This document shows, in pieces, positions 8,447 through 61,736 of a DNA stretch of 64,000 nt; position 1 is the first letter of the stretch, and every line of letters begins with the position of its first letter. The position numbers were made by a program, and so were the translations under genes. The DNA comes from Sparassis latifolia (lineage: Eukaryota; Basidiomycota; Agaricomycetes; Polyporales; Sparassidaceae). The notes beneath the pieces are model-generated. The model made no database searches, was not told the DNA's origin, and saw nothing but the letters and a program-made list of their open reading frames with translations. The DNA is taken from the NCBI GenBank assembly GCA_018466975.1, contig CM031561.1:3782001-3846000 (forward strand), in the 5' to 3' direction.

Positions 8447-8947
8447 CTATGATGACCGCGTCGTGATGGGGCAATAGCGCAAGATATGGCGCTCGAGTAG
8501 CCCAGGTCGCCTAACATCCTTGTCGCAATACGGACACTTGACGTTCGCACGCAAGTGCACGACGGCGACATGCTTGCCGAAGCTCGCGTAGGCCATTTCC
8601 CGGCCGCATCTGTGGTGTCTGTGGTCCCATTCGCAGGTGCCGCGAGTCTTCTTGTTCCATGGACCCTTCAAATGGTATTCCTTGATGTGCCGCATGAGCC
8701 CAGCGGCACTCACATCGTCCAGAAGAATGTGGCAATCATTGCCCCATCGACAAGGAACGCGCTTTATGGGATCTGGGAAGGGTTCCGGCAGCGGCGGAGC
8801 GGGTATGTACGAGCTATCCTGTTGTTGTGTATAGGGATGGCAGAGAGGTTGTTGACGAGGATCGGGGGTCTGGAAGATGAAGGGATCCGAGTCAAGAGCG
8901 GGGGCCATCAGCGGACGGCTGAAGTCTTCCCATGACGGGTAATACAT
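8447..8947 (-). CDS. Tandem-CWCH2 zinc-finger protein, array member ZF1
   Basis: Unspliced 166-residue protein, the shortest in the array. The start ATG at 8947 follows a pyrimidine-rich leader. Residues 1-65 are Pro/Asp-rich and probably disordered. Finger A uses C66, C72, H87 and H92 (CRW start). Finger B uses C105, C114, H126 and H131 (CEW start). Finger C uses C138, C141, H154 and C159. These spacings are shared by the whole array and make a nuclear nucleic-acid-binding role likely. Unlike most paralogues, no N-terminal first exon or intron is evident. Finger C reads VRRPGLLERH rather than the usual RxDVLxRH, so specificity may differ. It stands at the edge of the array and may be the most diverged copy. 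Function in the organism is unknown. Confidence 0.85.
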   Translation of the reverse strand: MYYPSWEDFSRPLMAPALDSDPFIFQTPDPRQQPLCHPYTQQQDSSYIPAPPLPEPFPDPIKRVPCRWGNDCHILLDDVSAAGLMRHIKEYHLKGPWNKKTRGTCEWDHRHHRCGREMAYASFGKHVAVVHLRANVKCPYCDKDVRRPGLLERHILRYCPITTRSS

Positions 8948-9949
8948 GGCGCAATGGTGAAGAGCGAAGAGAGTCGATCAGATGATCGAGAGGGTGAAGA
9001 GTGGATAGTTGAGTGAGACTGTGTGCTTGGCTTGGACATTGCGATTGCGGTACCACCTTAGATATATCCCCGTCTGCACAGGTTTTGCGCGTGTTCTGCG
9101 TGCGGTTTACTTCAGGAGTTGATTTTGCTACTCTTCCAGTCATGAGAAAAGACAGAACAGCTTGAGCTGGCGAGGCATCAGGACGGAGATTGCAGCACAT
9201 GAGGCGTTTGTCAGACAAACAGCGAGATTCTGAGAAAAGGGTGGAAAGCTCAGCCACAGCCAAACTGTAGGCGCATCAGTGAACGCGTCTGCCACGTGGA
9301 CGATGATCATGTCAGATTAGACTCGGCCACATGGCGACGCAAGGTTTGACCTGGACAGTACTACCTCCACTCTTTACTACCTCTGAGAGCAATAGCGAGC
9401 AAGATCATGTATATTGGAACGGGTGAGAAGAGATGAAACCCGAAGACATCGAACTTCGAAACTTGAAACGCCGTGGATCGTCCACGAATATACTTGTGAT
9501 TAATTGCATCTACTGACACAGCCGCGTCGCCGCGTGTTGAAGGAGTGTTGATGGCAAGGGAAGGCCTCGTCATACCTCTCATCCAACACGTTCATACTAA
9601 TTCTACCTTTGGTCTGCGAACCCCTGCAGGGTGGTTGTGTATCAAGCTTATTACCCGAAGGGAATGACATACGCAGGGCCGTTCCTGCAAGGGACTTCTT
9701 AGTGCCATCCTCGCCTCCAAGGTTGTTTTTTGACTCTGTCGATGACACCTACTCTGGCAACAGGTATTCATGTCTCATGCTGCATGCAACAACCAACGTG
9801 CAGACCCTATGTGCCGTACCACTGCCTTCATCTTATAGCTCTAGCCCGGTAGTCCTGCACAGGCGCTGAAACACCATGCTTTCACGGATACTAAGTCCAC
9901 GCAGTACCTGAGCTTACGCGTACGTTTCCCCTCGTTGTACAAGGCAACG
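8948..9949. other. Spacer between ZF1 and duplicated block
   Basis: 5' flank of ZF1. No recognisable gene, transposon end or RNA gene. Confidence 0.3.
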
Positions 9950-10330
9950 CCCGGTGCTACTAGCTGTTGCCACCGCAGCAGTTGACGTTCCCACCCTGGA
10001 ATGCCGTGAGTGTGTATTCTACACCGTGTTGTTTACATACATTCTCACCGCCGTGATTCTTAGCGGTTTTCTTGGCGTTTCCCCCGCGGTTACGCTGAGA
10101 TTCTCGTTTGACGGAACCAGCGGCACATGGGACGCCCGCCCGCGCTGTCGGGTGGCGGGAACGCCGGTCTGAATGCGTCAGAAATGCCGCATCGTGCCAT
10201 GGAATCTTTAGAAGACTCGATTGGCGGGTCGATCGGATCCTGAGGAAAGCCGATCGTAGGGATCGACCTCGATCGTCAACTTGCTCCACCTGACCTCCAC
10301 ACACCGCAACGAATCTTCCTGTACGTCCTC
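9950..10330. repeat. Duplicated block downstream of ZF2 (copy 1 of 2)
   Basis: Clearly related to 15700-16070. Shared stretches in the same order include GCCGTGATTCT, CGGTTACGCT, CGATTG plus GTCGATC, and CAACTTGCT plus CACCTGACCT. Each copy lies about 0.4-0.5 kb past the stop codon of its ZF gene (ZF2, ZF3), so the duplicated unit is larger than the coding region. Confidence 0.7.
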
Positions 10331-10753: not shown

Positions 10754-11632
10754 TCACGGGCGGTCGGGATTCTCCCGGCACCAATCCCGGACATGCCTCG
10801 CCAGTGCGTCTATCCTCGAGAACCTGTCTCCACAGAACTGGCAAAAGCGCTCTAGCGAGTGAAGGTGCACCGAGGCAACGTGTTTTCCAAAGTTCTCGTG
10901 CATCATTGATCTGTCGCACGGCGCTCCCTTAGTATGCCATTTGCATAACCCGGAGCGTCTCTCATCCCATTTCCCTTCGAAGTGGTGTTCGCGCAGGTGG
11001 CCCTTGACCGCAGCTGCTGTCAACTTCTCCAAATGCATGTTGCAACGCCCTCCGTCCCATAGACAGAGAATTTGACAAGCCGCTGGAGCAACAGCTAGGT
11101 GGCTAGCTTGTGGAAAGGGCGTGGAGGAGGCGATGTCGGCGTACGCTGGGGTGGGTGTGATGCTAAACGGCTTCGCGGACGAAGATGAGGGTTGTAAACC
11201 GCGAGCGTGCTGTCCATCATAGCTTGTGTTTTCGGATGACGACATCGCCATGTACAGATCTTGATAGGAATGTCCGAAGGAATCGGTAGTGTCGTCAGAG
11301 AAGGCGATGTTGGGGTTTGACTGGGGATACCTCAACTCTGAAAGAGACCATGGGTCCATGTAGGAAGATCTGATGATGGTGTGTTCATAGCTTGCAACAT
11401 CCGATGGTATGATGCTGTATCCGATTTGCCCTCTGACATTCGTGCATTGTCCTGGCATAGGGTTCCACTCCTGTAGGTTCGTGGAGCGGCCGGTTGTGTC
11501 TCCACATGCTGCTTCGGACGACGAAGCTAGCAAAGACTCGTGAGCTTGAACATTCTGTGTGGGAGAAGTGTATCTAACGATGTTGCTAGTGATTAGCAAG
11601 GTTTCTGGACGGCACTGCGGTGCTTACTGCAT
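10754..11632 (-). CDS. Tandem-CWCH2 zinc-finger protein, array member ZF2
   Basis: Inferred structure: ATG at 11632 with a 5-nt coding part of exon 1, a 42-nt intron 11586-11627 (GTAAGC...CTAATCACTAG), then exon 2 11585-10754, giving 278 residues starting MHNIVRYTSPTQ. The short first exon is supported by ZF3, where the same phase-2 splice joins to His-Asn-Ile-Val-Arg-Tyr. Residues up to about 170 are Ser/Asp/Gln-rich. Finger A is unusual: CLWDGGRC has C-x6-C, one residue longer than the other members. Finger B is CKWHTKGAPC...GKHVASVH. Finger C is CQFCGDRFSRIDALARH with a final Cys. The C-terminal tail RENPDRP matches the ZF3 tail RENPARV, so these two are sister copies. A TATATATAC stretch lies upstream at about 11.8 kb. 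Confidence 0.82.
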
Positions 11633-14678: not shown

Positions 14679-14686
14679 GTGAGTGG

Positions 14687-16440: not shown

Positions 16441-17274
16441 TCACACGCGGGCAGGATTCTCCCGGCACCACTTCCTGACGTGTCTCGTCAGGGCATCTAT
16501 GCGCGAGAACTTGTCTCCGCAAAAGTTGCAAAAACATGCCAGCGCGCCAAGATGCACTGACGCAACATGTTTCCCTAGGCTTTCATGTTTCAGTGACTTC
16601 CCGCATGGCTTGCCTTCGGTATACCATTTGCATACCCCCTCGCTCTTCTGATGCCATTCGCCTCGGATATGGTGTTCGCGCAAGTGCCTTTTGATCATAC
16701 CTGCTGTGGGTTTGTCCGGATACATGTGGCCACACCCTCCATCCCAGAGGCAGGGAATTCGGCAGCCGGGCGACTCCTGCACAGCGGCCGGATGTCCTGC
16801 CTGCGAGATAGAGGTGGCGTGCCCGGTGAAGGCATCTCCAAACTGGGAGTAGTCGCCTGGTGGGAGAGGAACGACCCAGTGAGAGTATTCTGGACGGTAA
16901 TCATGATTATCATATATCCCGGGGGTGATGCTGGAGGCCCCGATTGGAACTGCAGCAGCGGATTGCCCCGCAATCCATTCCTGGGGAATAGCGTAGCCAC
17001 TCCCTGGGTGATTCCCGTACTCCAAACCAAACGGTAGGGCCAACTGGGAATCGTAGGCCCCGGCAGAAGTGTGGGATTGCCCCGCAATCCACTCCTGGGG
17101 AATAGCGTAGCCACTCCCTGGGTGATTCCCGTACTCTACGCCAAACGGTGGGGTGAACTGGGATTGGTATCTGACAATGTTGCTGGTGGTCAGTGTAATT
17201 CATGGATGTCAGCATGGCAGTCCTCACTGCCATTGTCTTCCCCCGTTTTCATGCTGGCTGGGGTAGGGAAACAT
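16441..17274 (-). CDS. Tandem-CWCH2 zinc-finger protein, array member ZF3
   Basis: Exon 1 17274-17228 (MFPYPSQHENGGRQW plus two bases), a 45-nt intron 17183-17227 (GTGAGG...CCAG), then exon 2 17182-16441; 262 residues. The splice is phase 2 and enters at HNIVRYQ, as in ZF2. The N-terminal half carries two copies of a 38-residue repeat containing PFG(V/L)EYGNHPGSGYAIPQEW. Finger A is CLWDGGCGHMY..., finger B CKWYTEGKPC...LGKHVASVH, finger C CNFCGDKFSRIDALTRH plus a final Cys. In finger A the usual acidic LDD is replaced by PDK. All twelve metal ligands are present. The just-downstream sequence (GGTGGTATGAT) also matches ZF2. Confidence 0.83.
16960..17164. repeat. 114-bp in-frame tandem repeat inside ZF3
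   Basis: Two copies start at 16960 and 17074 with a period of 114 bp (38 codons), so the duplication keeps the reading frame. The copies differ at only a few positions over the first 75 bp, which suggests recent slippage or unequal exchange in the disordered N-terminal half. Confidence 0.85.
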
Positions 17275-23294: not shown

Positions 23295-24375
23295 TCACAT
23301 GCGGGCGGGATTGTTTGGGCAATGATCTGCCTGATGTCTGGCCAGAACATCAGACCGCACGTACATCCCGCCGCAAAACTCACAAACCACCGCCATGGCC
23401 CGGAGGTGCGACGAGGAGATGTGTTTCCCATAGCTGCCCTGCAGCATGGGTCTGTTGCAAGGAACACCGCCCTCGTGCCATAAACATCTCCCTTTAAGGC
23501 GCCGACGCCATTCGCCATTGATGTGGAAGTTCCGAAGGTGCCGCTCGATACTGCCCATTGATAAATCATCCAAACCAATCCCACAGCCGCCATCCCAGCG
23601 GCACTCCATACATGGAGCAAGCATAACTTGTGAGAGTGGGTGAGGATCAGGCATGGGAGGGGGGCGGACCTCTTGAATGGCAGGAACGTAGCGAGGGTTA
23701 ACGTACGAAGGCACCGGCGCGACAGTTGGATTGTGATTTGCCACCCACATGTCCTCGTCGAGGAAACGGGTACTATCTTGTTGGAGTGATGCCATGGGTA
23801 TCGGACCAGTACGCGTCATAGGGATAGCGGAGGCGCCGATGAGGCTCTGTTGATCGCTCTGCGGGACTGAAGGGTTGAACAGTGGCCACTCGTCTACTCG
23901 AGATGAGCTCGAAGTTCGCGCAGGTATGGGCATAGAATGCGGCGGGACAGGAGAGGACATCAAGCTGGGATGTGCGGCCCTGAAAAAGAGTCCAGGGGAA
24001 TGAGTGCGGTGTGACACAGAGACCGAAGTGCTCGGAGACGCACTTGCGGTCCGAGTGTGCTGATCGGCACCGTACTGCCCAAGTAGGCTAACAGCATGAA
24101 ATTGGGCCTCAGCTGCGCCACGAGATAAGGTATCCTCCAACGAAGGTTGCACGTCTGAGCTGCAGAAGAATTCAAGTCAACATTCAGCTCGCCGAAACAG
24201 CTGCAAATGCTTCTGCATACCTTCCCCATGACAGATAGGTGTTCGGAGCATCAGCATAAATATCTGGTAGTCCTTCTGCATCATAAAAGGACCCATGTGC
24301 GAAATCCGGGAGCGTGAGCTCTGGATTAGAGGGAGAGGGCTGGAATGTAAAGTGACAGGATGGTGGCATGGACAT
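23295..24375 (-). CDS. Tandem-CWCH2 zinc-finger protein, array member ZF4
   Basis: Exon 1 24375-24221 (51 codons plus two bases), a 61-nt intron 24160-24220 (GTATGC...CTGCAG), exon 2 24159-23295; 339 residues. Exon 1 contains NPELTLPDFAHGSF, a motif shared with ZF5 and in part with ZF6. The middle region is Ser/Pro/Thr-rich. Fingers: CRWDGGCGIGLDDL...H-LRNF-H; CLWHEGGVPC...GKHISSSH; CEFCGGMYVRSDVLARH with a final Cys; all ligands are present. About 29 nt after the stop codon is a GTAATG donor-like site, matched in ZF5 at the same place. ZF5 is the nearest relative across both exons and flanks, so the two units arose by a recent segmental duplication. Confidence 0.87.
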
Positions 24376-27775: not shown

Positions 27776-27840
27776 AGAAGCCCCATATTTTCATTTTACT
27801 AGTATCCGAGTTAGTCTTTCAGCGAGGCACATAGAGCGTA

Positions 27841-28064: not shown

Positions 28065-28239
28065 AACGACGCACCTCGAGTGTTACCCTTATGCTGCTAC
28101 ACAAGACTATGCCTAGCATTGCATGCCAATATCAGCTTCGTTAAATGCATCCGTGAGGAGTAACAGAGAAAGCACGTACCATAGAATAAGTGTTGCGGGT
28201 CCCACAACAAAGCCGTGAATATGAAGAAGAGAAAAGACG

Positions 28240-29117: not shown

Positions 29118-29129
29118 TAGGGTGCGATG

Positions 29130-29517: not shown

Positions 29518-30601
29518 TCACAGCCGAGCGGGATTGCTCGGACAATGGTCCGTCTGATGTCTGGCGAGGACATCGGATCGTGCGTACTCCCCGCCACAAA
29601 AATCACAAAACTTGGCCATGGCCCGGAAGTGCGTCGAAGAAATGTGCTTCCCATAGCTGCCTTGCAACATCGGGCGACCGCACAGTTTCCCCCCCTCGTG
29701 CCATAGACATCTCCCCTTGACCCGTCTATGCCATTCTCCGTTGATATGGAACTGCCGGAGATGTCGTTCCACACCGCCCATCGACAGGTCATCTAGACCA
29801 ATACCGCATCCGCCATCCCAGCGACACTCCATACATGGGGCAAGCATAGCTCGTGAGGTTGAGGGAGGTTCGGGAACTGGAGGGGCTGGAACATCTCGAA
29901 AGGCGTGATTACTATGAAAGTCAATGTATGGCGGCCCTGCCGCTGCAGTAGGATAGGAAGTTCCGGTCATCATACAGACAGCACGGGTACTACCCTGTGG
30001 GAATGATCCCGCGGGTATCGGATGCATAGGCGTCATAGAGATAGTAGAGGCGCCCATGATGCGCACCGGACGCATAGGTGTCATAGGGATAGCAGAGGCA
30101 TTCTCGATGCTCTCCCAATCGCTTTGCGAGTCTACGAAGGGGTCAAACGGTGCCCACCCGTCATCTGGAGACCGGTGGGAAGTTCGCTTGAGCATGGAAA
30201 CAGGATACGGTGCAACGCGCGAAGGCACCACATTGCGAAACGCGGTCCTGCTAAAAAGCCCAGGAAGACGAGTGCGGTGTGACACAGAAGCCGAAGTGCT
30301 CGGAGACGCACTTGCGGTCAACATGTGCTGATCAGCAACGTACTGGGCAGGGAGGCTGACGAATGGAAGTGAACCCTCAGTTACATAGGAAGACACTGGA
30401 CTGGTGGACGCGAGGAGGCCGTAGCTGCATATGTTTCAACATCTGGTTCGGCGAAACGACGAAGAACATTGCATACCTCACCCATGACCAATCTCTATCC
30501 GAAGCATCCTCGTTAATGTTCATGTCTATTGATGCTTCTACACCGTGAAAGGATCCACGTGCGATGTCTAGAAGTTCGGGGTTGTTATTAGACAGAGACA
30601 T
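29518..30601 (-). CDS. Tandem-CWCH2 zinc-finger protein, array member ZF5
   Basis: Exon 1 30601-30477 (MSLSNNNPELLDIARGSF..., 41 codons plus two bases), a 52-nt intron 30425-30476 (GTATGC...TGCAG), exon 2 30424-29518; 343 residues. The middle region holds a short internal repeat (AIPMTPMRP / TISMTPMHP). Fingers: CRWDGGCGIGLDDLSMGG..., CLWHEGGKLC...GKHISSTH, CDFCGGEYARSDVLARH with a final Cys. The first finger is nearly identical to that of ZF4, while the N-terminal half differs far more. This pattern suggests the DNA-binding block is under constraint and the N-terminus is fast-evolving. A GTAATC donor-like site follows the stop, as in ZF4. Confidence 0.87.
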
Positions 30602-30849
30602 CTGCTGTATGAGGTAGAATGAGAGCATGAACAAGCTACAAGAAGGCACTGGGATGCTATTATAGTAAAGACAAACGTAGTATTTTATATGTGAAGTGCA
30701 GTGCTGCACAGTTTATTTTGTGCTGAATTGCGGCCATGAGGGAAGGACAATTTAACCTTGAGTTACGCAAGCCCGCTCCCACGTAGGCGCTGGTTGGTGG
30801 GTTTTCCCGTTTTCCATTTCCGGAAGGTAGCATCAGGTCCGAATCGACC

Positions 30850-33303: not shown

Positions 33304-34194
33304 TCAATGATGACTGGCTCTGGCCCTGCAGTTATACTTCTGGTGCTTTTTGAGCACGTCGAATCGGCAGAATTTTTTGTGGCAACCGTCACAAATCCGA
33401 GTAGTCCTCCGCAAGTGAAACGCAGCGAGATGTTTGCCGTAGCTGCCCATCGACATGGAGCGACCACACACGTGGCTCCCATCGCGCCACCTGCAAATCA
33501 CCCGGTGCTGACCACCTTGCTCGCCAATGACATGCTTCGCACGAATATGGTGGTTCAGGCCACCGGGAGTCAAGTCATCGAGCCATTCGTCGCATCCGCC
33601 ATCCAACTGGCATCGTATGTGTCGCGGAGAATGAATGGCATTAGGACTCGAAATAGAATGCTGAGCAAAGGCGTGACTGGTATGAGATTGCGGAATAAGA
33701 ATTGGGATGGAGTTAAGTGAAGATGGGTACTCTTGTCCGCTAAGACGAGAAAGGGAGGATACTTGATAGGGCACTTGTGGCGATTCATACTGAGCCTGAG
33801 GATGTACTATTGTCTCACTGAGCTGTGCCGCAGGAGTGGTCTTAACGAGGCTAGGGATCTGGAAAGTCTGACCATCGGGGGAATTGATAGAATTGAAAAC
33901 GTCATTAGACAGAAGAATATGACGAGACGTGTTTTCCGGTATCGTGCGTGGAGCACGATACTTCCCGCTAGACGAGGAGGTCTCACATTGAATGTTCCCG
34001 TGTGCGAACCTGGTGCACGGCTGCGGTGCTGTAGTATCGTATGTTTCAAAGAGGAGAAGGGGAATGTGCTTGGGCCAGCTGGTACGGGGCATGCTGCCAG
34101 CAACGTGGACTCTCGAATGTATGTCATGGCTGTACAACAGACATGGGTTAGTGAAGGCTCCATGGACGAATGATGGTAACACCGTACCCTCCAT
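33304..34194 (-). CDS. Tandem-CWCH2 zinc-finger protein, array member ZF6
   Basis: Open frame from ATG 34194 to the stop at 33304, 296 residues. It begins MEGTVLPSFVHGAF, which matches the LPDFAHGSF motif in exon 1 of ZF4. A phase-2 intron may lie near 34.12 kb as in relatives, but the frame stays open across it and the donor sites are weak. Finger A starts CQLDGGC, so the Cys-x-Trp tryptophan is replaced by Leu. Finger B is CRWRDGSHVC...GKHLAAFH, finger C CDGCHKKFCRFDVLKKH plus a final Cys. The linker between A and B (EQGGQHRV) lacks the aromatic residue seen elsewhere. It is intermediate between the ZF4/5 and ZF7-10 groups. Confidence 0.83.
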   Translation of the reverse strand: MEGTVLPSFVHGAFTNPCLLYSHDIHSRVHVAGSMPRTSWPKHIPLLLFETYDTTAPQPCTRFAHGNIQCETSSSSGKYRAPRTIPENTSRHILLSNDVFNSINSPDGQTFQIPSLVKTTPAAQLSETIVHPQAQYESPQVPYQVSSLSRLSGQEYPSSLNSIPILIPQSHTSHAFAQHSISSPNAIHSPRHIRCQLDGGCDEWLDDLTPGGLNHHIRAKHVIGEQGGQHRVICRWRDGSHVCGRSMSMGSYGKHLAAFHLRRTTRICDGCHKKFCRFDVLKKHQKYNCRARASHH

Positions 34195-34265
34195 CTGATG
34201 CACGCAGTCCGACAGGAGCTGACGCAGCTTCGTGTATTAACAAGTCATGTCTCCTTCGCTCCTAG

Positions 34266-37089: not shown

Positions 37090-38248
37090 TCATAGGTGAC
37101 CAGCTTCGTCCCTCGCATGCAGTAGCTTGTGCTTCTGAAGCACGTCGCTCCTGCAATAGGTCTTTCCGCAGACGTCACAGACGACAGCGGTTGACTGCAA
37201 GTGAATTGATGCTACATGTTTGCCGTAGCCTCCCTGCATCATCTTGCGTTCACAGGGCCTGTCTCCGACTACCCATGTGCATGCTCCCCGAACCTGTCGG
37301 TTCCAATTCCCGCGTAGGTGCACCTCCCTGATGTGACGCTCGATACCACTCGGAGTCACATCGTCTAACGTGACATCGCAGTCACCATCCCAGTGACAGC
37401 GCGTGCCCTGCAGAGGGTAGACAGGCGCGTCGGATGAGGCTAGCACCTGCTGTTTTGGGCGTCTCATAGAAGGCACTGAAGAGACCTGGTCGGAGTGATC
37501 ATTGCGCTCGGGCTGTGGAGGCGATGTGGAATTTTGATCATCATACGAGCACCGGTGATGAGAGATGGGAGGCCCTGTGCCTCCGGACGGGACTGGGGGA
37601 AAGTCATGGAGCTGCGATGGGATCATTAGCGCATTGAAAGAGGCCACAGCGGTGGTCGCGGGATCGACATCGACGTGAAGGGTCTCCATAGAAGAATCGT
37701 TCGGTGTGTGGAAATCATCAAATGAATTGTTCAGTGGAAGAACACTGAATCCTTCCATGTAAGACATATCATGGTTTGAGGTGGGATCAGTGGCGAAAGG
37801 GGGGTTAGAAGTCGGCAAGAACGCCCTGTCATGGGAGGGGGCAGATCCGTCCACACGCCGCTCTGCATTGGAAGAGGAAGACGGAAGAGGCCTTGAGTTG
37901 AGAGACAAGGCACGAAGCGCTCGAATAATCTCGTGGGCTTCGCTGCGCGAGATGGCGATGAACACCGAGTCGGAGATCAAAGGGTTTATTACAGGGTTGG
38001 GGCCGCCGAAGAAGTCTGCACCTGCGAACGATGCTTCATGACTACGTAAGAGGTATCTCCAATAATGAGCGACAGGGCTGATATATTGTGGTAGGAACGT
38101 ACCCGAACTCAGGCGCGCGAGGCCCGAAGGGAACCGGACCAATGCCGAACGCAGCGCCATCGTGTCTAGCTCGCGGAGGATAATGTTCCCGCACACAATC
38201 CATGTAGATTGAGCCAATATTATCCGAGCTTCTCGTGGTTCCTGACAT
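37090..38248 (-). CDS. Tandem-CWCH2 zinc-finger protein, array member ZF7
   Basis: Exon 1 38248-38103 (MSGTTRSSDNIG..., 48 codons plus two bases), a 61-nt intron 38042-38102 (GTACGT...ACGTAG), exon 2 38041-37090; 365 residues. The splice makes Gly-His-Glu-Ala-Ser, matching Gly-His in ZF9 and in the orphan exon at 51.4 kb. Exon 1 contains HYPPRARHDG, related to RYPARARDDR in ZF10 and NYPLARDDR in ZF9. Fingers: CHWDGDCDVTLDDV..., CTWVVGDRPC...GKHVASIH, CDVCGKTYCRSDVLQKH. The last ligand is His (HKLLH) instead of the Cys used by all other members, so finger C is a canonical C2H2. A GTAAGC donor-like site follows 7 nt after the stop. Confidence 0.87.
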
Positions 38249-38464
38249 TTCTGTGAAGTGAATGGCAGCTGAAGGAGGAGGTTGTGGAGGTGAAGTCGCT
38301 ATTAGGAGAGCTTTTATTGCGAGTTGGTCAGAGGGTTGCAACTGGTGAGCGATGAGCATGTGCTGCGGCACCGTATTACACATGAGCAACACCAAGCAGC
38401 CGCCTGGCGATACCAGCTGCTTGGGCAGCAGACTAGGTGGCAAAACAAGCGGGCTTAAGATCGA

Positions 38465-41472: not shown

Positions 41473-42250
41473 CTAGGCCCATAAACCACCAACGACGCCC
41501 TTACAGCGACGGTCCTTGTGCTTCTGAAGCACATCGGACCTAGAATAAATCTTTCCGCATTCTTCGCACGTCGCGGTTGTAGACTGCAAATGAAACGATG
41601 CTACGTGCTTGCCATAGCTGCCCTGCACCATCGGACGTCTGCATAACCCTTGCCCTGTATTGCACCTGCACTCCCCAGGATGCTTCCGAACCCAGTCTCC
41701 GTTGATGTGTTTCGCTTGAATATGACATTCTATACCGCCGGGGGAAATATCGTCCAACCAGACGTCGCACTTCCCCCAGAGGCAACGTGTAAGCACAGGC
41801 GGATAAACAGCCTCGTTCAGAGAGGGAGGCGCCTTCTCCTTCCGGCGGAATGTAAGAGGGTGCGAAGATGGTTTCTTGACGCGTAGATCTTGGCGTTGTC
41901 CGCGTAGAGCCACTGCGGTATTCTGATCGTGAGATGGGAGTCTGTGACGAGATGTGGAGAGGGTTGCGGAGGAGACCGACCAAGGAGCTTGTTGAGCTCG
42001 AGATAGTGCCACTGGCGCGCCTAGTGATGCATTCGCAAACGACACGGGAGCTAAATCAACGCAAGGAGTCTGCGATATCCACGCGTCCGGTGCGTGAGAA
42101 GGGTCGAGTGGAAGCATCAATGGAGGGATATCGTGTCCCATATGAGGAGAACCATAATTGGCGCAAGGAACCGCAAGAGGGTGGCACCGGGGAATGCCGA
42201 GACCGGAGGTGGGGGGGGGAGGGTGTGTCGGGGCCCTTAATTGGCTTTTC
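41473..42250 (-). CDS. Tandem-CWCH2 zinc-finger protein, array member ZF8 (lacks first exon)
   Basis: Open frame ending at 41473. The first ATG is at 42141 (222 residues), but the frame is open upstream to about 42.25 kb, as expected for an exon-2 remnant. Fingers: CLWGKC (one residue shorter, C-x4-C) followed by DVWLDDISPGG; CRCNTGQGLC...GKHVASFH, where the Trp of Cys-x-Trp is Cys; CEECGKIYSRSDVLQKH plus a final Cys. No family-type first exon lies nearby. One does occur at 51388-51551, beyond the retrotransposon. GTAAGC overlaps the TAG stop. Because of the missing 5' part and two altered fingers, this copy may be a pseudogene or an N-terminally shortened gene. Confidence 0.75.
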
Positions 42251-42253
42251 GTA
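42204..42253. repeat. G-rich/TTGGCTTTT repeat, left copy
   Basis: A long G run, then TGTGTC, GGGCCCTTAATTGGCTTTTC. It resembles 43014-43063 (G run, TCTGTCCAGGGTCTTATTTGGCTTTTTC) in direct orientation. The two copies bracket the PHD-like gene and may be the edges of an inserted or duplicated segment of about 0.8 kb. Confidence 0.5.
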
Positions 42254-42477
42254 CCTTAACCCAAAGTGCTCCGAATTACTCTAAGTGGCTGTCGGCACGT
42301 TTCTACAGGTATCCGCGCGCCGTAGACTCTCAAATCTGACAGTTCTTGCTCTTGTGGATCTATCTGAGCTCCTGTGTGTCCATCTATTGTTAAGAATACT
42401 TTAATCATGCAGCTACTTTCAACCCCTCCCGTCCCTCGACGTCCTCTCGCTCTGCGTACAGTGGCTGCCGCGCTCTC

Positions 42478-43163: not shown

Positions 43164-43804
43164 TGTTACAATGCTCCTCACTTGTGGCGCGTCTTTTCTT
43201 TTTCTTTTCCTTGTTCCCTTTACGTTACCAGACCACGTGATCCAACACGTGACTCATTGGAGCGCAACCTTTGATTCTTTATCCAGATGTCCAGAACCCC
43301 TAGTCTAGGGTTACACCGGATCCAACTCCGGACCTTCTTCTTATTGCACATGCAAGACGTGCATGTATGCCTCATCTTTACCTCGTTCTGATACACGACT
43401 CGTTATCCCCATTAGTACTGATTATCTCTCACGACCTTACTCAGCTTTCCCATACATATTACTTCCTCGCTGTTACCCTGCTCAGACATCGTTTCACCTT
43501 ATCTAGCCAATAAACGATCCTGCATTACTGCGTAGTACTGCGGATACCTTTTGTATAAGTAGACGACCTTGTCGAGCTGGATCCCCATCTCGACCTGGTT
43601 ACCATTAAACCAGCTTTTCACTTGCCTTTGACTGAGATCGACCGTCAGTAGCAGACAGCTACTACGAGTCATAAGAACGAACTCTGATCGACCTTCAGTG
43701 CGAGGACATCGCCAGAAGTGTCACTTGAACGAACTTGTGTCTTAGACTAAGACCTTGTCTCGTGACGACTCAACTAGACGCTCGTGTTTCGCTGCCACGT
43801 AACA
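43164..43804 (+). repeat. 5' LTR
   Basis: Starts TGTTACA and ends CGTAACA, so the terminal inverted repeat has one mismatch. It contains two CACGTG boxes near 43.24 kb, a CAATAAA signal at about 43.51 kb and a TATAAGT box at 43554-43560. The last may be the promoter for the element transcript. Confidence 0.97.
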
Positions 43805-44145
43805 TTAGGTTGAGATCTTATTACTCTCTGTGACTTCCTAGAGTCTAACAATGAACTACCGACTGGACCGAACCTTGAAGACTGAACGATACACCCGATT
43901 CGATTGCTAAAGCACCGTTTGAGATTACTCTGTAATTGAGGTAGCTGAAGGGATAGACTGATCACTCATCTTCGGAGAGGGGTCTGTCCGAGAGACCAAT
44001 AGGCTGAGGAGGCTAAGGTAATCACTCGAGCAATCAGCAAATAGGTGTATCAGTTTGAAGACAGAAGACACTCTACGGGCTTGTTAGCCGACGATGAACG
44101 AACCCACTTAGTTAAGGACGGTGTGCAGTCTACGTGTAGACATAG

Positions 44146-44268
<123 letters not shown>

Positions 44269-44334
44269 TAGGAGGAAGGCCTGTATTCATCAGGCCAGAC
44301 AATCACAACTTTGACTACTCCCAGAGGAATTTGA

Positions 44335-49361
<5,027 letters not shown>

Positions 49362-49378
49362 AGGAGAAGAAACCCGGA

Positions 49379-49555
49379 ATGACTACCGTGACGATTTTCC
49401 TCATCATCTTCCTAATCGTCCTCCACTGCACAACCCTCACTTTTCTTTGGATCACCCACCGAATCCTTATCAGACAACTTGTCGAACACACACTCTTCAT
49501 GCGAGACAGCCCGCACGCTAACAGCTGGGGTGATCAGAACGATGCCTGGAACTGA
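49379..49555 (+). CDS. Accessory ORF A of the retroelement, small membrane protein
   Basis: 58 residues. It starts MTTVTIFLIIFLIVLHCTTL, a single strong transmembrane helix, followed by a basic stretch and a polar tail. It begins 18 nt after the pol stop. No family was recognised. Its position between pol and the 3' LTR is where some Gypsy elements carry extra genes. Confidence 0.5.
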   Translation: MTTVTIFLIIFLIVLHCTTLTFLWITHRILIRQLVEHTLFMRDSPHANSWGDQNDAWN

Positions 49556-49691
49556 TCAGGCAGCTCTTATCTCTGTGGGAATACTCTTTATCGTCCAATG
49601 GATTTTCATCTATTTGATTATTACCCGGATCCACGACATTCTATTTCACATCACAGATAATCGTGATCCCCTTAACGACCGAAAGGTATAA
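49542..49691 (+). CDS. Accessory ORF B of the retroelement, small membrane protein
   Basis: 49 residues, overlapping the end of ORF A by 14 nt in another frame. It reads ALISVGILFIVQWIFIYLII, a single hydrophobic helix, then a charged tail. The overlap of two hydrophobic ORFs suggests either linked translation or a frameshifted single ancestor. Confidence 0.45.
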   Translation: MPGTDQAALISVGILFIVQWIFIYLIITRIHDILFHITDNRDPLNDRKV

Positions 49692-49717
49692 AAGGAGGAG
49701 AAGACGATATATCATCA

Positions 49718-50260
49718 ATGCCCACTTCCGCTATAGACAACCTTGTTCACAATATACTCGCTGAAGTCGCCTCCACAATTATGAGCATACCCGCATCGCC
49801 TACACTTGTCAATAGAGTACCCTCTCGAGCACAGACACCCTTTATCCGCGCCTCATCGCCCTCACCTTCTATCGAACTCAGTCACACATCGGACAAACAA
49901 GAATTTGCCACACGTCTGGTCTTGGCTATCCGTGTTCCTGTCGACTTCACAGATATCCTCGTCACCTTACGAAATCGCCCGCAAGATCGACAAGCAGTGG
50001 TTTCCATGCAACGAGCATTAGAAATGGTCGAGTGGATGCAGACAGCCAGACAAGAGCTCATCGCAGCAGAGGAAAGGATGAGTAGAGCCCGAACCAGAGT
50101 CGACCAAGTCTGGTCATTAATGCGCAGTACGGTCACTCGTACAGCACAGGAGATTTGGAGGGAGCATGGGGACGAAGACATCGGACACATCCTCGGATAC
50201 ACCACTAATGGAATACTCGCATCCACTCCTCGCTCGTCGCCAGAACCAATTCCCATTTGA
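49718..50260 (+). CDS. Accessory ORF C of the retroelement, helical protein
   Basis: 180 residues, no hydrophobic segment. The N-terminus is Ser/Pro-rich (SPSPSIELSHTSDKQEF). The middle is helical, with heptad-like spacing (ALEMVEWMQTARQELIAAEE, RMSRARTRVDQVW). It resembles coiled-coil proteins sometimes found downstream of pol in fungal Gypsy elements, but I recognise no family. It ends 210 nt before the 3' LTR. The frame is intact, unlike gag and pol. Confidence 0.5.
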   Translation: MPTSAIDNLVHNILAEVASTIMSIPASPTLVNRVPSRAQTPFIRASSPSPSIELSHTSDKQEFATRLVLAIRVPVDFTDILVTLRNRPQDRQAVVSMQRALEMVEWMQTARQELIAAEERMSRARTRVDQVWSLMRSTVTRTAQEIWREHGDEDIGHILGYTTNGILASTPRSSPEPIPI

Positions 50261-50470
50261 CCTCGCCCTTCTTTCTCGACCGCATCCACTTCTTCGCATC
50301 GCAGTCATCCCTACAGGATCTCCGATGGGCGTATACCCTGAACAAGGATCATGAACCAGCTGGCGGACATGCTACAGATGTGGAGGAGATCATTATGTCC
50401 ACGACTGCCCCCGACGACGATGAAGATCACAATATTTCTTGTGGGACAAGAAACGTTAGACGGGAGCTGA

Positions 50471-51111
50471 TGTTACAACGCTCCTCACTTGTGGCGCATC
50501 TTTTCTTTTTCTTTTCCTTGTTCCCTTTACGTTACCAGACCACGTGATCCAACACGTGACTCATTGGAGCGCAACCTTTGATTCTTTATCCAGATGTCCA
50601 GAACCCCTAGTCTAGGGTTACACCGGATCCAACTCCGGACCTTCTTCTTATTGCACATGCAAGACGTGCATGTATGCCTCATCTTTACCTCGTTCTGATA
50701 CACGACTCGTTATCCCCATTAGTACTGATTATCTCTCACGACCTTACTCAGCTTTCCCATACATATTACTTCCTCGCTGTTACCCTGCTCAGACATCGTT
50801 TCACCTTATCTAGCCAATAAACGATCCTGCATTACTGCGTAGTACTGCGGATACCTTTTGTATAAGTAGACGACCTTGTCGAGCTGGATCCCCATCTCGA
50901 CCTGGTTACCATTAAACCAGCTTTTCACTTGCCTTTGACTGAGATCGACCGTCAGTAGCAGACAGCTACTACGAGTCATAAGAACGAACTCTGATCGACC
51001 TTCAGTGCGAGGACATCGCCAGAAGTGTCACTTGAACGGACTTGTGTCTTAGACTAAGACCTTGTCTCGTGACGACTCAACTAGACGCTCGTGTTTCGCT
51101 GCCGTGTAACA
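50471..51111 (+). repeat. 3' LTR
   Basis: 641 bp. It starts TGTTACA and ends TGTAACA (perfect terminal inversion). It differs from the 5' LTR at five positions, all transitions. Confidence 0.97.
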
Positions 51112-51116: not shown

Positions 51117-51551
51117 CAGATCCTCTTACACGCTGCTGTCCGAGAGATGTGTAGGATAAACTGCAGGATGGTTGGACTTATGAGACGAGGAATTAATGGC
51201 TTCCCTTAATTCGTAGGCATTGACAGCGGAGGCTAGTGCGTCAAGTTGAAGGTAGAAGGGTCCACAGGAGGGTTGATGGTGCTGTTGCTGTTGAAGTTGG
51301 CAGCACTTGCGAAAAATGCCTGGTGACTGGAGGGAATATATCACCTCATGTCATTGACATGAGCTTGGAACATGAGCAACAACCTACCCTCTTTCTGGAG
51401 TAGAGGCATCGAAGACAGAGTGTATGACTGATTGATTCGGACTACTCTCTGACAGAAACTGGCAGTCTCTTGTTTGCAGGGGAGAATGCTCCGTCACATC
51501 ATTCGCATGCATTGTGATGTAATGATTCCAGCTCTGAGATGGTCTTGACAT
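51117..51551 (-). pseudogene. Orphan 5' part of a ZF-family gene, cut by the retroelement
   Basis: Exon 1 51551-51388 (MSRPSQSWNHYITMHANDV..., 54 codons plus two bases, the same length as exon 1 of ZF10). A 61-nt intron follows at 51327-51387 (GTAGGT...CTCCAG), then exon 2 from 51326. The phase-2 splice gives Gly-His-Gln-Ala-Phe-Phe-Ala, which aligns with Gly-His-Glu-Ala-Ser-Phe-Ala in ZF7. The frame meets TAG at 51233-51235; a 1-nt shift restores SAVNAYELREAINSSS. The sequence then runs into the LTR element at 51111 with no zinc fingers. It is on the same strand as the array and directly upstream of ZF8 if the insertion is removed. I infer that it is the missing front of ZF8. Confidence 0.72.
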
Positions 51552-56782: not shown

Positions 56783-57918
56783 CTAGAGAGGGGTGGCTAC
56801 GCCCTTGCAGCGCTCCTTCTTATGCTTCTGGCATACATCCTTCCTGGAATACTTCTTTCCGCAACCATCACATACGACCGCGGTGGATCTCAAGTGGATT
56901 GCTGCGATATGTATTCCAAGGTTTGCCTGCACCATTCGGTGTCCGCACCGCCCGCTATCGGTGCACCACTCGCATAGAATCAGGGCCTGCCGGTCCAAAA
57001 CGCCGCAGAAGTGAATGTCCTTAACATGGCGCTCTATTCCGCCTCGCGTGATGTCATCCATCAGGACCACGCATTCTCCACCCCAGAAGCAGCGCGTGCG
57101 CATTGGTAGAAGACAGGCCGCATCTGATGCGAACACCGTCGGCTGGGGGCGCTCGAGTGTGTACGGTTGGGCGCGGTGATGACCGTGAACTGGTGGATAA
57201 GGGGAGCGCCCGTGAAGGTAGACAGAAGGCACTGTTTGGTTCACTGGTAGCATGTCAGCCTGATATTGATAATCAACCGCATGTGGACGGGGCGCGCCAG
57301 TGCCCGCAGTCGCAGAAAGTGCATTCATATTCATATCTTGACCGGCCCGTGGATAACGAGGGCTCAATGGATAGTTTGATTGAAGGAGATATCTTCCTCC
57401 CACATGAAAGGTGTCATGATCACTTGTAGATACAGCGAATGAGTTGAGATCAGATTCGGAAGGCCCTGAGTAAGGTGGGTCGTAAGAAGGAATATGGAGA
57501 GAGTATTGTCCAAGCGGTTGCTCTGCGACACCATTGTAAGATCGAGGAAAAGTCATCGTATCCAGATTGAATGGTAGGGAGTGTATCGGCGGTTGGAAAG
57601 TCTCGTAAGCGGGAGTGCTAGGTATACCGGAGAACGTCCAATCAAAGCTGGGATCATTCACAAGGGGGTCATTATTGTCCATTGAATCGGCAGCATCTAT
57701 CAACGATGTCCCATGACTGTACAAGCGATATCATAATGATCAGTGACATTGTTGAAAAGCGCGGCCTGAACGTACCCTCGTCGGTCGACGGGCGTGTAGG
57801 GAATCGATTGACTCGGGCCAGAGCCACAAGGGACCCTATCGTCTCTTGCTAGTGGATAGTTATCCGAACGCGCAAGAGTTAAGGCAAGATTGTTCCAGTC
57901 CTGAAGCGATTGCGACAT
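56783..57918 (-). CDS. Tandem-CWCH2 zinc-finger protein, array member ZF9
   Basis: Exon 1 57918-57776 (MSQSLQDWNNLALTLARSD..., 47 codons plus two bases), a 59-nt intron 57717-57775 (GTACGT...GTACAG), exon 2 57716-56783; 358 residues. Exon 1 shows NYPLARDDRVPCGSGPSQS, close to ZF10. The middle region is Ser/Pro/Tyr-rich. Finger A is CFWGGECVVLMDDI...ERHVKDIH. Finger B is CEWCTDSGRC with an extra Cys and GIHIAAIH in place of the otherwise fixed GKH. Finger C is CDGCGKKYSRKDVCQKH plus a final Cys, with Cys replacing Leu in DVL. All ligands remain. A GTGAGC donor-like site lies 4 nt after the stop. Confidence 0.86.
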
Positions 57919-59059: not shown

Positions 59060-59341
59060 CACTGGATGCAATTTCCAATAAGTTGGGTGGATTATGCAGA
59101 AGTTATTTGAAAGATAGAGTGAATAAGTTTAGTGTAAGTTGTACTGCTTAGGAGAGACTTATCTGAAAGTTATCCTAAAAATGGAAAACTTATTATGAAG
59201 TTATTTCTACTTTGAGATAGGTTTCAAATAACTTTGAGATAAGTCTCTTGTGAGCAGTGCCACTTACACTAAATTTATTCACTCTATCTTTCAAATAACA
59301 TTCGCATACTCCCGCCAACTTATTGGAAATTGTATCCAGTG
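59060..59341. mobile_element. CACTG-ended MITE with long inverted repeats (CACTA-like)
   Basis: 282 bp. It starts CACTGGATGCAATTTCCAAT and ends with the inverse of CACTGGATACAATTTCCAAT. The inverted arms extend about 120 bp with roughly 85-90% similarity by eye, so the element folds into one long hairpin. A 3-bp direct repeat ATA flanks it. CACTR ends plus a 3-bp duplication fit the CACTA/CMC superfamily. No transposase. Confidence 0.75.
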
Positions 59342-60553
59342 ATAGCTGAATCGTCTGTTGTGTTGCGTCATCAAACTGGTCCAGACAGTAGTGCATCACA
59401 ATCAACAGGAACACGAGTTAGCGATATGTACCGACCAAAAAAAACTACCGAGGAAGCCGTCGCTATGGGTACCGCTCCTCAGTCCATATATACCTATCTA
59501 CCGCAGCTATTCGTAGGGTAAGCCCCCGAGGATCAGCACCCACGTCCTTCGAGATCCGCAAATCAATCGCGATTTCATATATATTTCCTTTCACGCACTG
59601 AATCCGATCGTCACAATGCGTGTTTTTCGCTTCGAGATGACAGTATTGGAGATTCGACTTCCTTAAACGTGTGGTTAGGTAGCGTGTGCAGCACACGACG
59701 ACGAAGGAGGGTGCGAACGGATACGAGTGCGCGAGGGGCAAGCTGGGGGTCCAGAGTGTCCGAACAAAATGAGGATGCACAGAGCAAAGACAAAGCGAAA
59801 ATCCACTGCCGACTCATCTTACGGGCTCGTAAAGACCAACAATTACAACGATACGAATAGAATAGTGACATGCAAACATACAAATAGAAGCATCCAACAG
59901 CCGACTACAGTCGAACGTCGAGCCTCAATCGCATATAACATAAACATATCATTTGCATAAGACCTAGGCCTGTTGTTACAACATAATATCGATGGTAAAT
60001 GGACATGCATGTGCCGAGGGGGAAAATGCTACATAAGTGACTGTCCGCGCATGAAATGCAGTGGCGCCGTGAGCGCGGAGAATACGGAAATGTATGGGAA
60101 TGGTGAACTGGGGAAGAGATGCGTAGCGTAAAAGGTAAATGAAAGATAAATAGATGATCGCGACCAAGCACAAGTCAACGATATGCTGGAGTGTGTCGGG
60201 AGTGAGGAAATCATGATACGGGTGTAAGCAGTGAACGATTGGTGAATATGATTATGGCAAATATTCCAATGATTAGCATGAACTTGCGTAATGTGAATAG
60301 ATTAGCGGGGTGGACGGATAAACCACAAGGAATGTGTGGGCAGAGGGAGTGAGTCAATCCATATCCTGAATATAGTTGGGAAGAACACAGCCAGTCGACG
60401 GAGCACTGCCCCGATACTGCAAGCGAGAAACTGTGGTTGCGACGCGGTTCTCAGTGAACGAAGCGTGTTATCACTGCCGCAAATACTGTAGATGCTGCAG
60501 CATAAGACTTAGCGCCGTCAGAGATGGGACACAAGATGGATCACTCACACTAC
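59342..60553. other. Spacer and ZF10 3' flank
   Basis: No supportable gene. A GAATGGTGAACTGGGG motif lies at about 60.10 kb, similar to the GGCGAACC motif behind ZF7-ZF9. Confidence 0.3.
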
Positions 60554-61736
60554 TCATAGAGGACCGGGCATACCCCTGCAGTGAGCTTTCTTGTGCTTCC
60601 AGAGCACATCCTTCCTACAGAACATCTTTCGGCATACATTGCACATGACAGAGGTCGACCGCAGATGCTTCGACGCTACGTGCTTGCCAAAGCCGCCCTG
60701 AGCCATCATGCGCCCGCATCTCTCATCCCCAGTGTGCCATCTACATTCTCCCCGGACGATGCGATTCCATTGTTCATGTAGGTGTACGGCCCTAAGATGA
60801 CGCTCAACGCCGCCTGGCGTCATGTCATCCAGCAAAACATCGCACTGTCCTCCCCAGAAGCAGCGCGTACGGAATGGCAAAAGAGCGGCAGGATCCGAGG
60901 CTGGCACCGCCAGCTCAGGTTGCTCGGTTAGAGTGCGAGAAGTAGAAGGGACTGGATAGGGCCCCGTGAGGCGGTGATCATGAAGTCGTGAATGAACCGG
61001 CCTGAACTGCCGACCAAAGGGTGGGCGCCCGCGACTAGTCATGGATGCGGCTGAGGAGACGACCGGCGATAGAACGCGTTGAGCTTGAGCATGGGCTATC
61101 GTCATCTGCGGTGGAAGTGTAGCAGCCGGAGCGGTGGGTACGTCGATGCCAGGATCCTGGTAAATGCCAAGGGCAGGTGAACGACAGGGGTAGTCCGGTG
61201 GACAGACATAGTTTGCTCCCTGGTGAAAAATGTCGTACTCGACACCAGGAACGCCTGTATCATTAGGGCCGGAATATGCATTAAATATATCGTTGGAAGG
61301 CGTGAAGGGAGCACACTGTTCCACACGCTGCTGTCCGACAGAAATATGGGAGGACAAATCTGTGGGATGTCGGTCGGAATACAAGGACGAGGACGTCTGG
61401 GGTGCATTGTAAGCTTGAGCAATAGGCATGTCCGACAACAAGTCTCCAAGCGGGTCAATGTCACCGATGGATTTTGCGGGGCTTGCCAGTGCGAGCGAGT
61501 CCTCGTCGCGACTATGTAAGGGGCATCGCCGATAATCAGCGACACACCTCAAGGACAACCGTAAGAATTCACCTTGCTGCAGGCCAGCCAGCCTCGAAGA
61601 AAGACTGCGCAACTGAATGACTCGGACCAGCTCCGTACGGCATCCTGTCGTCTCTTGCTCGCGCAGGATAACGCTCTGTCAGACCGTTCGCATCGATAGA
61701 GCCAACCTGGTAGGAGTTGTCAGTAGGGCTCGTCAT
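60554..61736 (-). CDS. Tandem-CWCH2 zinc-finger protein, array member ZF10
   Basis: Exon 1 61736-61573 (MTSPTDNSYQVGSIDANGL..., 54 codons plus two bases), a 61-nt intron 61512-61572 (GTGAAT...CATAG), exon 2 61511-60554; 373 residues, the longest member. Exon 1 contains RYPARARDDRMPYGAGPSHS. The middle region is Ser/Pro/Tyr-rich, with GIYQDPGIDV. Fingers: CFWGGQCDVLLDDMTPGG...ERHLRAVH; CRWHTGDERC...GKHVASKH; CNVCRKMFCRKDVLWKH plus a final Cys. A perfect GTGAGT donor-like site lies 5 nt after the TGA stop. Nearest relative is ZF9. All metal ligands and the family motifs are intact, so this is a good reference copy. Confidence 0.88.

Follow-up and report, generated by a model that had tools for sequence, protein, structure and literature searches.

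The window analysed here, a stretch of 64,000 nucleotides of Sparassis latifolia contig CM031561.1 (C10 hereafter), carries ten open reading frames (ORFs) for C2H2 zinc-finger proteins, all located on the minus strand between positions 8447 and 61678 and all encoding a common three-finger block. We consider, with a probability of about 0.58, that these genes belong to a tandem array of regulators of the tandem-CWCH2 type, which grew by local duplication and whose products would share a common DNA address while differing in their N-terminal halves.

Layout and extent of the array

A profile HMM constructed from the ten blocks returned all ten ORFs with E values of 1e-46 or better, on the very sequences used for its training, while the next six-frame match in the window had an E value of 0.002 and was antisense to ZF3. 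The same-strand, ten-copy array reported in a preliminary description is confirmed. That description placed it at 8447 to 61736; the ten copies do lie there, but they form part of a longer row that extends past the edge of the window as far as about C10:3,916 kb, and the minus strand carries every one of the 18 copies counted over C10:3790-3916 kb. Within 340 kb are found 22 of the 31 strong family matches. Position 61736 corresponds to the ATG of the ZF10 first-exon frame and not to the end of its main ORF.

The statement that almost no other intact gene occurs between the copies also held, as 12 non-family ORFs of at least 150 aa were detected and the three with a Pfam match all fall inside one Ty3-type LTR element. 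Neither the Rfam scan nor the tRNA scan of the window returned a match. A laccase fragment had its best match in PDB 5ehf, an entry from a polypore, and a 5.8S search gave no hit. The 502-aa ORF to the left of the array gave no match in Pfam and NCBIfam, and an NCBIfam scan of four proteins returned no match. The coordinates of the features are reported in Table 1.

Table 1. Features of the window, with positions counted from its first nucleotide
Feature	Position	Strand	Remarks
502-aa ORF left of array	4296..5804	+	F-box-like by eye only
ZF1, stop-to-stop ORF	8447..8977	-	ATG 8947; three-finger block C-terminal
ZF2 ORF	10754..11623	-	pair partner ZF3
ZF3 ORF	16441..17199	-	pair partner ZF2; internal N-terminal repeat
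ZF4 main ORF	23295..24176	-	
ZF4 proposed exon 1	24221..24375	-	MSMPPSCHF...; intron GTATGC..CTGCAG
ZF5 main ORF	29518..30435	-	
ZF5 proposed exon 1	30477..30628	-	donor GTATGC; ATG 30628 or 30601
ZF6 ORF	33304..34236	-	Leu in place of finger-1 Trp
ZF7 ORF	37090..38298	-	
ZF8 ORF	41473..42255	-	Cys in place of finger-2 Trp
Ty3-type LTR element with chromodomain	43164..51111	+	Pfam matches and LTRs
Orphan first exon	51387..51551	-	DNA-level homology to ZF10 5' end; beyond LTR element from ZF8
ZF9 main ORF	56783..57730	-	
ZF9 proposed exon 1	57776..57918	-	MSQSLQDWNN...; intron GTACGT..GTACAG
ZF10 main ORF	60554..61678	-	block 81% identical to C10:3848 kb
ZF10 first-exon reading frame	61572..61736	-	MTSPTDNSYQ...; intron position provisional

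ZF4, ZF5 and ZF9 are each predicted to be joined to a first exon by a consensus intron. In ZF7, a counterpart of the ZF10 first-exon frame, homologous to it, starts at ATG 38248 in a different frame from the main ORF, and no intron model was obtained for it under script limits leaving little room for one. A homologous first exon was sought directly upstream of ZF8 and was not found. Describing all ten copies as intact-looking was too generous for two of them, since ZF8 lacks the finger-2 Trp and is separated from the orphan first exon by the LTR element, and ZF6 lacks the finger-1 Trp. The N-terminal repeat of ZF3 (16960-17055 and 17074-17169) shows 90.6% identity. A TATA-like word occurred at -95 to -50 in four of eight ATG-anchored upstream regions and in 1.6% of random windows, both words and range having been picked after inspection of the data; no upstream word common to the array copies was detected beyond chance.

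Structure and contact residues of the three-finger block

Fingers 1 and 2 of the block bear the tandem-CWCH2 tryptophans and finger 3 is Zif268-like. The hallmark Trp between the Cys pair was present in each of fingers 1 and 2 in 26 of 27 aligned rows. In 16 of the 18 array copies the linker between them measured 12 residues, and in the remaining two the pattern allowed no measurement, the published value being 11.8 +/- 4.4 (Hatayama and Aruga 2010, PMC2837044), and no TGEKP-type linker was found there among the copies checked. As in the tandem-CWCH2 proteins (PMC2837044), two adjacent C-x-W fingers joined by a 12-residue linker precede a canonical finger. The published pattern matched 22 of 30 rows in its loose form and two of 30 in its strict form (W-x(1,3)-C in finger 2); the strict form permits one to three residues where finger 2 of the array has about six from Trp to Cys, and it also misses part of the tandem-CWCH2 collection of Hatayama and Aruga themselves (PMC2837044). 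A genome search with the published consensus returned five other loci and none of the array copies. By its tryptophans, linker and loose pattern the array is assigned to the tandem-CWCH2 kind as a whole, of which 11 classes are published.

An AlphaFold2 model displayed one helix per finger with a mean pLDDT of 79.7, and finger 3 of ZF5 matched Zif268 chains with an E value of 4e-4. The contact residues were analysed on an alignment of 27 rows, three of the 30 being left out. In finger 3, position -1 was R in 26/26 and +2 was D in 25/27, while +3 was V or A in 22/27 and +6 was K or R in 26/27. The predicted base-contact positions vary less than the others, those of finger 3 least, the mean entropy being 1.29 bits at the contacts and 2.19 over the remaining 71 non-ligand positions (P 0.0014). 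The finger-2 stretch QGSYGKHxASxHLRST is likewise highly conserved, beyond the zinc ligands alone.

These data bear on the proposal that the family silences transposons in a KRAB-like manner and is engaged in an arms race against LTR elements nearby. Vertebrate KRAB and fish FiNZ clusters are, like the array, clustered families with gain and loss among transposons, and a young Ty3-type element in the window and a copia-type one, assigned by eye, inside the C10:3848 kb gene fit this picture. The analogy with KRAB clusters stands for the layout but does not extend to the proteins, which have only three fingers per block instead of long arrays, no KRAB domain detected by Pfam at E 1 in the ten ORFs, and predicted contacts that are conserved where those of the KRAB and FiNZ clusters are diversified. 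Moreover, the LTR elements sit within or beside the array's own genes. In the animal genomes examined for transposon-targeting zinc-finger proteins, contact residues are reported to be among the most variable, with Drosophila as a possible exception (PMC10547256); the conserved contacts found here are the reverse and weaken the silencing hypothesis, which we regard as improbable.

A further alternative, which we judge unlikely, is that the block serves for protein interaction, a role proposed for ZF1-3 of the PRC2 cofactor AEBP2; the array proteins would then act as cofactors of chromatin instead of reading DNA sequence. The best structural neighbour of the block in Foldseek was indeed AEBP2 (5y0u; prob 0.97, E 8.7e-3, TM 0.39), which also has a tandem-CWCH2 pair plus a third finger, and the conservation of the finger-2 stretch points in the same direction. 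However, the match is weak, none of the 168 in the list having an E value of 0.001 or better. As to a link with PRC2, the genome contains two matches to preSET_CXC, a domain found in E(z)-type proteins; a search of the genome for the VEFS box gave no match and was uninformative, as the control was likewise silent. AEBP2 ZF1-3 binds RBBP4 and, despite its tandem-CWCH2 unit, bound none of the tested DNAs (PMC6053351). Finger 3 of the array, in contrast, shows Zif268-type contacts (R, D, V/A, K/R, versus S, P, D, D in AEBP2 finger 1), and the RRK-rich RBBP4-binding motif that follows the three AEBP2 fingers is absent from the ten window proteins, which end too soon, within about 14 residues of the first His of finger 3.

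Selection on the block and on the N-terminal part

The conservation of the DNA-binding block against variable N-terminal halves, noted beforehand, was borne out by pN/pS values in four array pairs, which were 0.15, 0.37, 0.28 and 0.41 for the block and, in the same order, 0.77, 0.76, 0.77 and 0.56 for the N-terminal part. Although the block was lower in all four, the intervals were separate in two pairs and overlapping in the other two, and Jukes-Cantor correction reversed the order for ZF9/ZF10 (0.18 block, 0.15 N-terminal), a pair near saturation. The block values indicate selection for the protein after duplication, thus arguing against the hypothesis that the copies are mostly decaying and have no present function. 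This hypothesis, to which we give little credit, relies on ZF6 and ZF8, each missing one hallmark Trp, on the broken copies described below and on the C9 chimeras, whose pN/pS is near 1.

Synonymous differences in the block ranged from 0.31 to 0.70 in the four most alike array pairs tested. Since even these pairs differ at 31-70% of block synonymous sites, it is extremely improbable that the copies are alleles or an assembly artefact. Near-identical pairs do exist elsewhere in the assembly (C8, 99.9% over 3.8 kb; C6/C15, 98.5% over 2 kb), but the array pairs are far more divergent, with ZF4 and ZF5 blocks 83% identical at the protein level, and only the interval from ZF8 to ZF9 contains an LTR element.

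In some close pairs the synonymous sites of the block differ more than their surroundings; when two C9 pairs were compared, block against all flanks, one returned a P of 5e-4 and the other of 0.17. Gene conversion from an available donor was considered as the source of the high synonymous divergence of the block and discarded, as no paralogue explains it.

Gain and loss of copies

Adjacent copies had been described as the most alike, which is correct for ZF2/ZF3 and ZF4/ZF5, whereas ZF7-10 form no supported clade. In the tree, ZF10 is nearest to the copies at C10:3848 kb and C11:109 kb, while the nearest relatives of ZF8 are three C9 copies. The array copies do not make up a single clade of the family, and array membership is not clustered on the tree, 218 of 500 shuffles scoring as low, indicating either that copies moved in or out or that the tree is too weak.

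Several copies are damaged. In the C10:3847 kb copy finger 1 is without its Cys half, and in the C10:3916 kb copy the first Cys is missing; the C10:3894 kb copy contains two TAG codons, and the C11 copy one TAG and a start inside the gene. The copia-type element inside the C10:3848 kb gene has a 1400-aa open frame and lies between 439-bp repeats showing 100% identity. The Ty3-type element located between ZF8 and the orphan first exon has LTRs (43164-43804 and 50471-51111) that are 99.2% identical, with GGGGG at both sides. The birth-and-death evolution suggested at the outset is supported insofar as copies arise and disappear within a clustered, regulator-like family whose finger block is conserved and whose N-terminal halves change faster. 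A decayed copy on C7 holds a tract 94% identical to ZF9; this tract and the synonymous excess of the block in some close pairs may reflect the exchange of pieces of array genes with distant copies.

Fusions of F-box/LRR and zinc-finger sequences on C9 were evaluated as a working receptor and rejected. In the two loci read (L015 and L022) the F-box half occupies a different, overlapping frame from the LRR-like half and the fingers, unlike the finger-less neighbour L078, which is a single 447-aa ORF. Because of the split frames and the pN/pS near 1, these fusions carry no argument.

Discussion

The interpretation we favour is a regulator array with a common DNA target. Local duplication would have enlarged the array, gain and loss of copies probably being still ongoing. 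Each protein, presumably expressed, would consist of a long, fast-changing and probably disordered N-terminal half followed by the C-terminal finger block. Fingers 1 and 2 are expected to pack through the two tryptophans into a rigid platform, and finger 3 (R-x-D-[VA]-x-x-[KR]), with the help of finger 2, would read a short DNA core. PacC, in which a Trp change abolishes DNA binding, serves here as a functional model for the block and not as a claimed orthologue. Against sequence reading, a single Zif-like finger set on such a platform might not suffice for specific binding. Given how little variation the predicted contacts show, the paralogues would compete for identical or very similar sites, and their N-terminal halves would differ in the partners they recruit. 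The fuller scheme of 'one address, many heads', in which a dozen or more paralogues have constrained contacts and diversified recruitment and the response is set by competition for common sites, is possible but tentative.

Tandem or proximal duplicates, as in the array, also occur in the C2H2 expansions of Agaricomycotina (for example Schizophyllum commune tandem = 10 and Ganoderma sinense proximal = 8), with Ka/Ks below 1, according to the available part of a survey (PMC12295980); neither a tandem-CWCH2 array nor an analysis of contact residues was found in that part. The best-known clustered zinc-finger families are arms-race systems of animals, in which the DNA-reading residues change fastest. 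The array described here has a similar genomic layout and the opposite pattern of contact variation. It would offer a natural system for testing which forces drive such clusters under a fixed DNA target, and a handle on regulatory rewiring in fungi.

An array of homologous zinc-finger genes on C10

The ten minus-strand zinc-finger ORFs of the window (ZF1-ZF10, numbered from left to right; the window spans C10:3782001-3846000) are homologous, and all carry at the C-terminus a three-finger block of about 108 residues. An HMM trained on these blocks recovered all ten, its own training set, at E 1e-46 or better among the six-frame ORFs of the window, where no further convincing match was found, the next one (E 0.002) being antisense to ZF3. 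Only one of the ten blocks passed the cut-off of the Pfam C2H2 models. Genome-wide six-frame searches (41.4 Mb, 22 contigs) at a threshold of E 1 returned 36 matches with the ZF10 block and 38 with the ZF5 block. With the former, 31 of the 36 matches had an E value no worse than 1e-6; of this set, 22 fell within C10:3618-3957 kb, on the contig that carries the window. Gene content and a laccase match identify the genome as fungal. All 18 family copies at C10:3790-3916 kb lie on the minus strand and the array exceeds the window; additional family matches were found on C6, C7, C8, C9, C11 and C15. Assuming independent placement of copies, P was about 2e-39 for the clustering and about 8e-6 for the strand bias; tandem duplication alone would yield both. 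The open-access literature, covered mostly at the level of titles and abstract openings, gave no account of such an array.

Pfam hits were obtained for three of the 12 non-family ORFs of at least 150 aa between the copies, all inside a single Ty3-type LTR element with protease, reverse transcriptase, integrase and chromodomain. In codon-usage score the ten ZF ORFs and a 502-aa ORF stood clearly above all others, a score that is circular for the finger genes because it was partly trained on them. The Cys-rich peptide listed in the table presumably resembles Cys clusters linked to KDZ transposons, and the ORF of L073, a locus on C10, looks like a Plavaka-type transposase.

Coordinates of copies, gene pieces and repeats (positions lacking a contig prefix refer to the window)
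Feature	Location	Strand	Remarks
Array copies beyond window	C10:3847771, 3848441, 3858307, 3886508, 3888921, 3895113, 3901089, 3915803	-	Block search
Four flanking relatives, both sides of array	C10:3618, 3667, 3670, 3956 kb	+	Block search
ZF4	23295-24176	-	
ZF5	29518-30435	-	
ZF10	60554-61678	-	
502-aa ORF	4296-5804		
Orphan first exon	51551-51387		DNA-level match
Ty3-type LTR element	LTRs 43164-43804 and 50471-51111		LTRs 99.2% identical, GGGGG at each side
Repeat	27030-29118 and C10:3860001-3862102		97.7% identity
Imperfect long palindrome, MITE-like	27837-28068		68%, window self-comparison; within 2.1-kb repeat common to C10:3860-3862 kb
Imperfect long palindrome, MITE-like	59060-59341		79%, window self-comparison
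Cys-rich peptide	42659-42733	+	Between ZF8 and Ty3-type LTR element
L073 ORF	L073 4291-5106 (C10:3864-3865 kb)		Terminus ...NKYADHHAFELLSS; no Pfam hit
ZF9 N-terminal tract	57213-57633		About 400 bases
ZF9-like tract on C7	L089 = C7:1899001-1901500, bases 854-1261		94% identical, 1-base gap
C9 chimeras	C9:305, 348, 380 kb (L017, L015, L022)		
C8 pair	C8:1704501-1708500 (L069) and C8:2401501-2405500 (L070)		3.8-kb copies, 99.9% identical, 0.7 Mb apart
C6/C15 pair	C6:162 kb and C15:637 kb		2-kb copies, 98.5% identical, two contigs

Domain type and DNA-reading positions

A Trp between the Cys residues was present in finger 1 and in finger 2 in 26 of 27 aligned rows each; ZF6 lacks it in finger 1 and ZF8 in finger 2. 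According to PMC2837044, a Trp at this place in two fingers is the defining mark of the tandem-CWCH2 motif found in Zic/Gli, PacC, Zap1 and AEBP2. The motif pattern, as that paper gives it, fitted 22 of 30 rows in a loose version and 2 of 30 in the strict one, mostly because the Trp-to-Cys gap of finger 2 is about six residues. The linker between fingers 1 and 2 measures 12 residues in 16 of the 18 array copies. The published consensus matched five other loci of this genome and no array copy, and none of 12 other C2H2 loci scanned with the 27-row profile exceeded 17.4 bits.

AlphaFold2 models of the ten window blocks predicted a single helix per finger (mean pLDDT 79.7, pTM 0.62). Their top PDB neighbour was AEBP2 ZF1-3 (5y0u), a weak match (E 8.7e-3, prob 0.97, TM 0.39, rmsd 9.6), followed by CTCF fingers; finger 3 of ZF5 matched Zif268 chains at E 4e-4, ranked behind generic designed fingers. 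The tandem-CWCH2 Trp fingers and this best, weak fold match are the likeness of the array blocks to AEBP2, whose fingers 1-2 pack as a tandem-CWCH2 unit and which left all tested DNAs unbound, as far as the accessible part of PMC6053351 reports. By analogy, the block might be a cofactor module like AEBP2; we regard this main rival as rather unlikely. In PacC, a change of the Trp abolishes DNA binding (PMC2837044).

Contact registers were counted backward from the first His, that of finger 2 being less sure because this finger is one residue shorter than canonical. Entropy was calculated on 27 rows, i.e., 30 minus C11:109, C10:3847 and C8:2404; the broken, partial or duplicate copies C15:637, C10:4481 and C8:1706 kb and the weakest matches never entered the set. 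The 12 canonical contact positions showed a mean of 1.29 bits vs 2.19 for the other 71 non-ligand block positions (Mann-Whitney P 0.0014, an optimistic value because the rows are related). Mean contact entropy was 0.85 in finger 3, 1.26 in finger 1 and 1.76 in finger 2, the finger 3 contacts being R-1 (26/26), D+2 (25/27), V/A+3 (22/27) and K/R+6 (26/27).

Selection on the block and the N-terminal part

The block is under selection. Using Nei-Gojobori codon counts with intervals bootstrapped over codons, pN/pS of block and N-terminal part was 0.15 [0.09-0.23] and 0.77 [0.63-0.97] for ZF4/ZF5, 0.37 [0.25-0.56] and 0.76 [0.63-0.91] for ZF2/ZF3, 0.28 [0.15-0.49] and 0.77 [0.43-1.51] (residue 100 onward) for ZF10 and the copy at C10:3848 kb, and 0.41 [0.31-0.56] and 0.56 [0.46-0.67] for ZF9/ZF10. 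The preliminary description of a conserved finger block with variable N-terminal halves was borne out, the block value being lower in all four pairs; the intervals were non-overlapping in two pairs and overlapped in the other two. Jukes-Cantor correction kept the contrast in three of four pairs and reversed it for ZF9/ZF10, a pair close to saturation (block 0.18, N-terminal 0.15); in the two further pairs, ZF7/ZF10 and ZF7/ZF8, the block was saturated at synonymous sites. Block pN/pS was about 1 in two pairs of C9 chimeras, in which the block is joined to F-box/LRR-like gene sequence.

With P values uncorrected for multiple tests, the synonymous difference was higher in the block for ZF4/ZF5 (block 0.70, N-terminal part 0.42, P 2e-4) and for ZF10 and C10:3848 (L011; 0.31 vs 0.12 in neighbouring sequence, P 0.002); against all flanks, the block excess remained for C9 380/305 kb (40/312 vs 128/1883, P 5e-4) and was not significant for 380/348 kb (18/312 vs 75/1873, P 0.17). 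ZF2/ZF3 showed the opposite (block 0.57, below 0.74), and in ZF10/C11 the block (17/273) was no higher than the flank (about 9%). A search for a donor sequence of this excess found none.

Gene structure, gain, loss and possible exchange of copies

A first exon or its frame is common to ZF7, ZF9, ZF10 and a site at C10:3854934, and an orphan site of the window matches it at the DNA level. In ZF4, ZF5 and ZF9 a consensus intron lies between exon 1 and the main ORF; the intron position is ambiguous in ZF10, and the search for an intron model yielded none for ZF7. TATA-like words were found upstream of six of the ten genes, the ZF2 and ZF3 anchors having been placed by the analyst close to the word. 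Such a word lay at -95 to -50 in 4 of 8 ATG-anchored upstream regions vs 1.6% of random windows, both words and range having been picked post hoc, after inspection of the sequences.

In a tree of 30 block rows, with 15 of 27 inner branches open, ZF2 paired with ZF3 (100/98), and ZF4 and ZF5 were neighbours. ZF10 grouped with C11:109 kb (99/92) and C10:3848 kb, C10:3886 kb with 3858 kb (97/92), ZF8 with three C9 copies (96/91) and ZF1 with C10:3956 kb (95/83). The array copies together do not form one clade, as the array label takes nine changes and 218 of 500 shuffles were equally low; with the label thus scattered, either copies have been moving into and out of the array, or else the tree is not strong enough.

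Because the Ty3-type element separates ZF8 from the orphan first exon, ZF8 probably represents the 3' portion of a gene that was split. The C10:3848 kb gene is cut off from its own first exon by an inserted element that looks copia-type by eye; its open frame of 1400 aa is flanked by 439-bp repeats of 100% identity. On C11, the copy reproduces the ZF10 3' part at DNA level in two pieces (91% and 83%), begins within the gene and contains a TAG. The abrupt ends of the ZF9-like tract on C7 suggest a piece transferred between copies. Downstream of that tract a finger-3-like remnant, CEYCGMSYRR, was recognised by eye.

The C8 and C6/C15 pairs are either products of recent duplication or haplotype sequence that was left over in the assembly; laccase pairs with equal scores on C1 and C10 may likewise be duplication or haplotype remnants. 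In each of the three C9 chimeras, the LRR-like half of an F-box gene (F-box-like, E 2e-4) carries a ZF8-type block fused to it in frame, within a local cluster of F-box/LRR-like genes (C9, 246-447 kb; 12 of 18 matches); in the two chimeras that were read, the F-box half lies in a different frame from the LRR-like half and the fingers.

Proposed function

We favour, with a probability of about 0.58, a tandem-CWCH2-type regulator array with one DNA target and differing N-terminal halves, our confidence in this reading being slightly lowered by the outcome of the tree, by the intervals that overlap and by the reversal of ZF9/ZF10 under correction. By analogy with PacC, fingers 1-2 would form a platform and fingers 2-3 would contact DNA at a single core motif common to the copies. 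The N-terminal halves may recruit different partners, and the copies would compete for the target.
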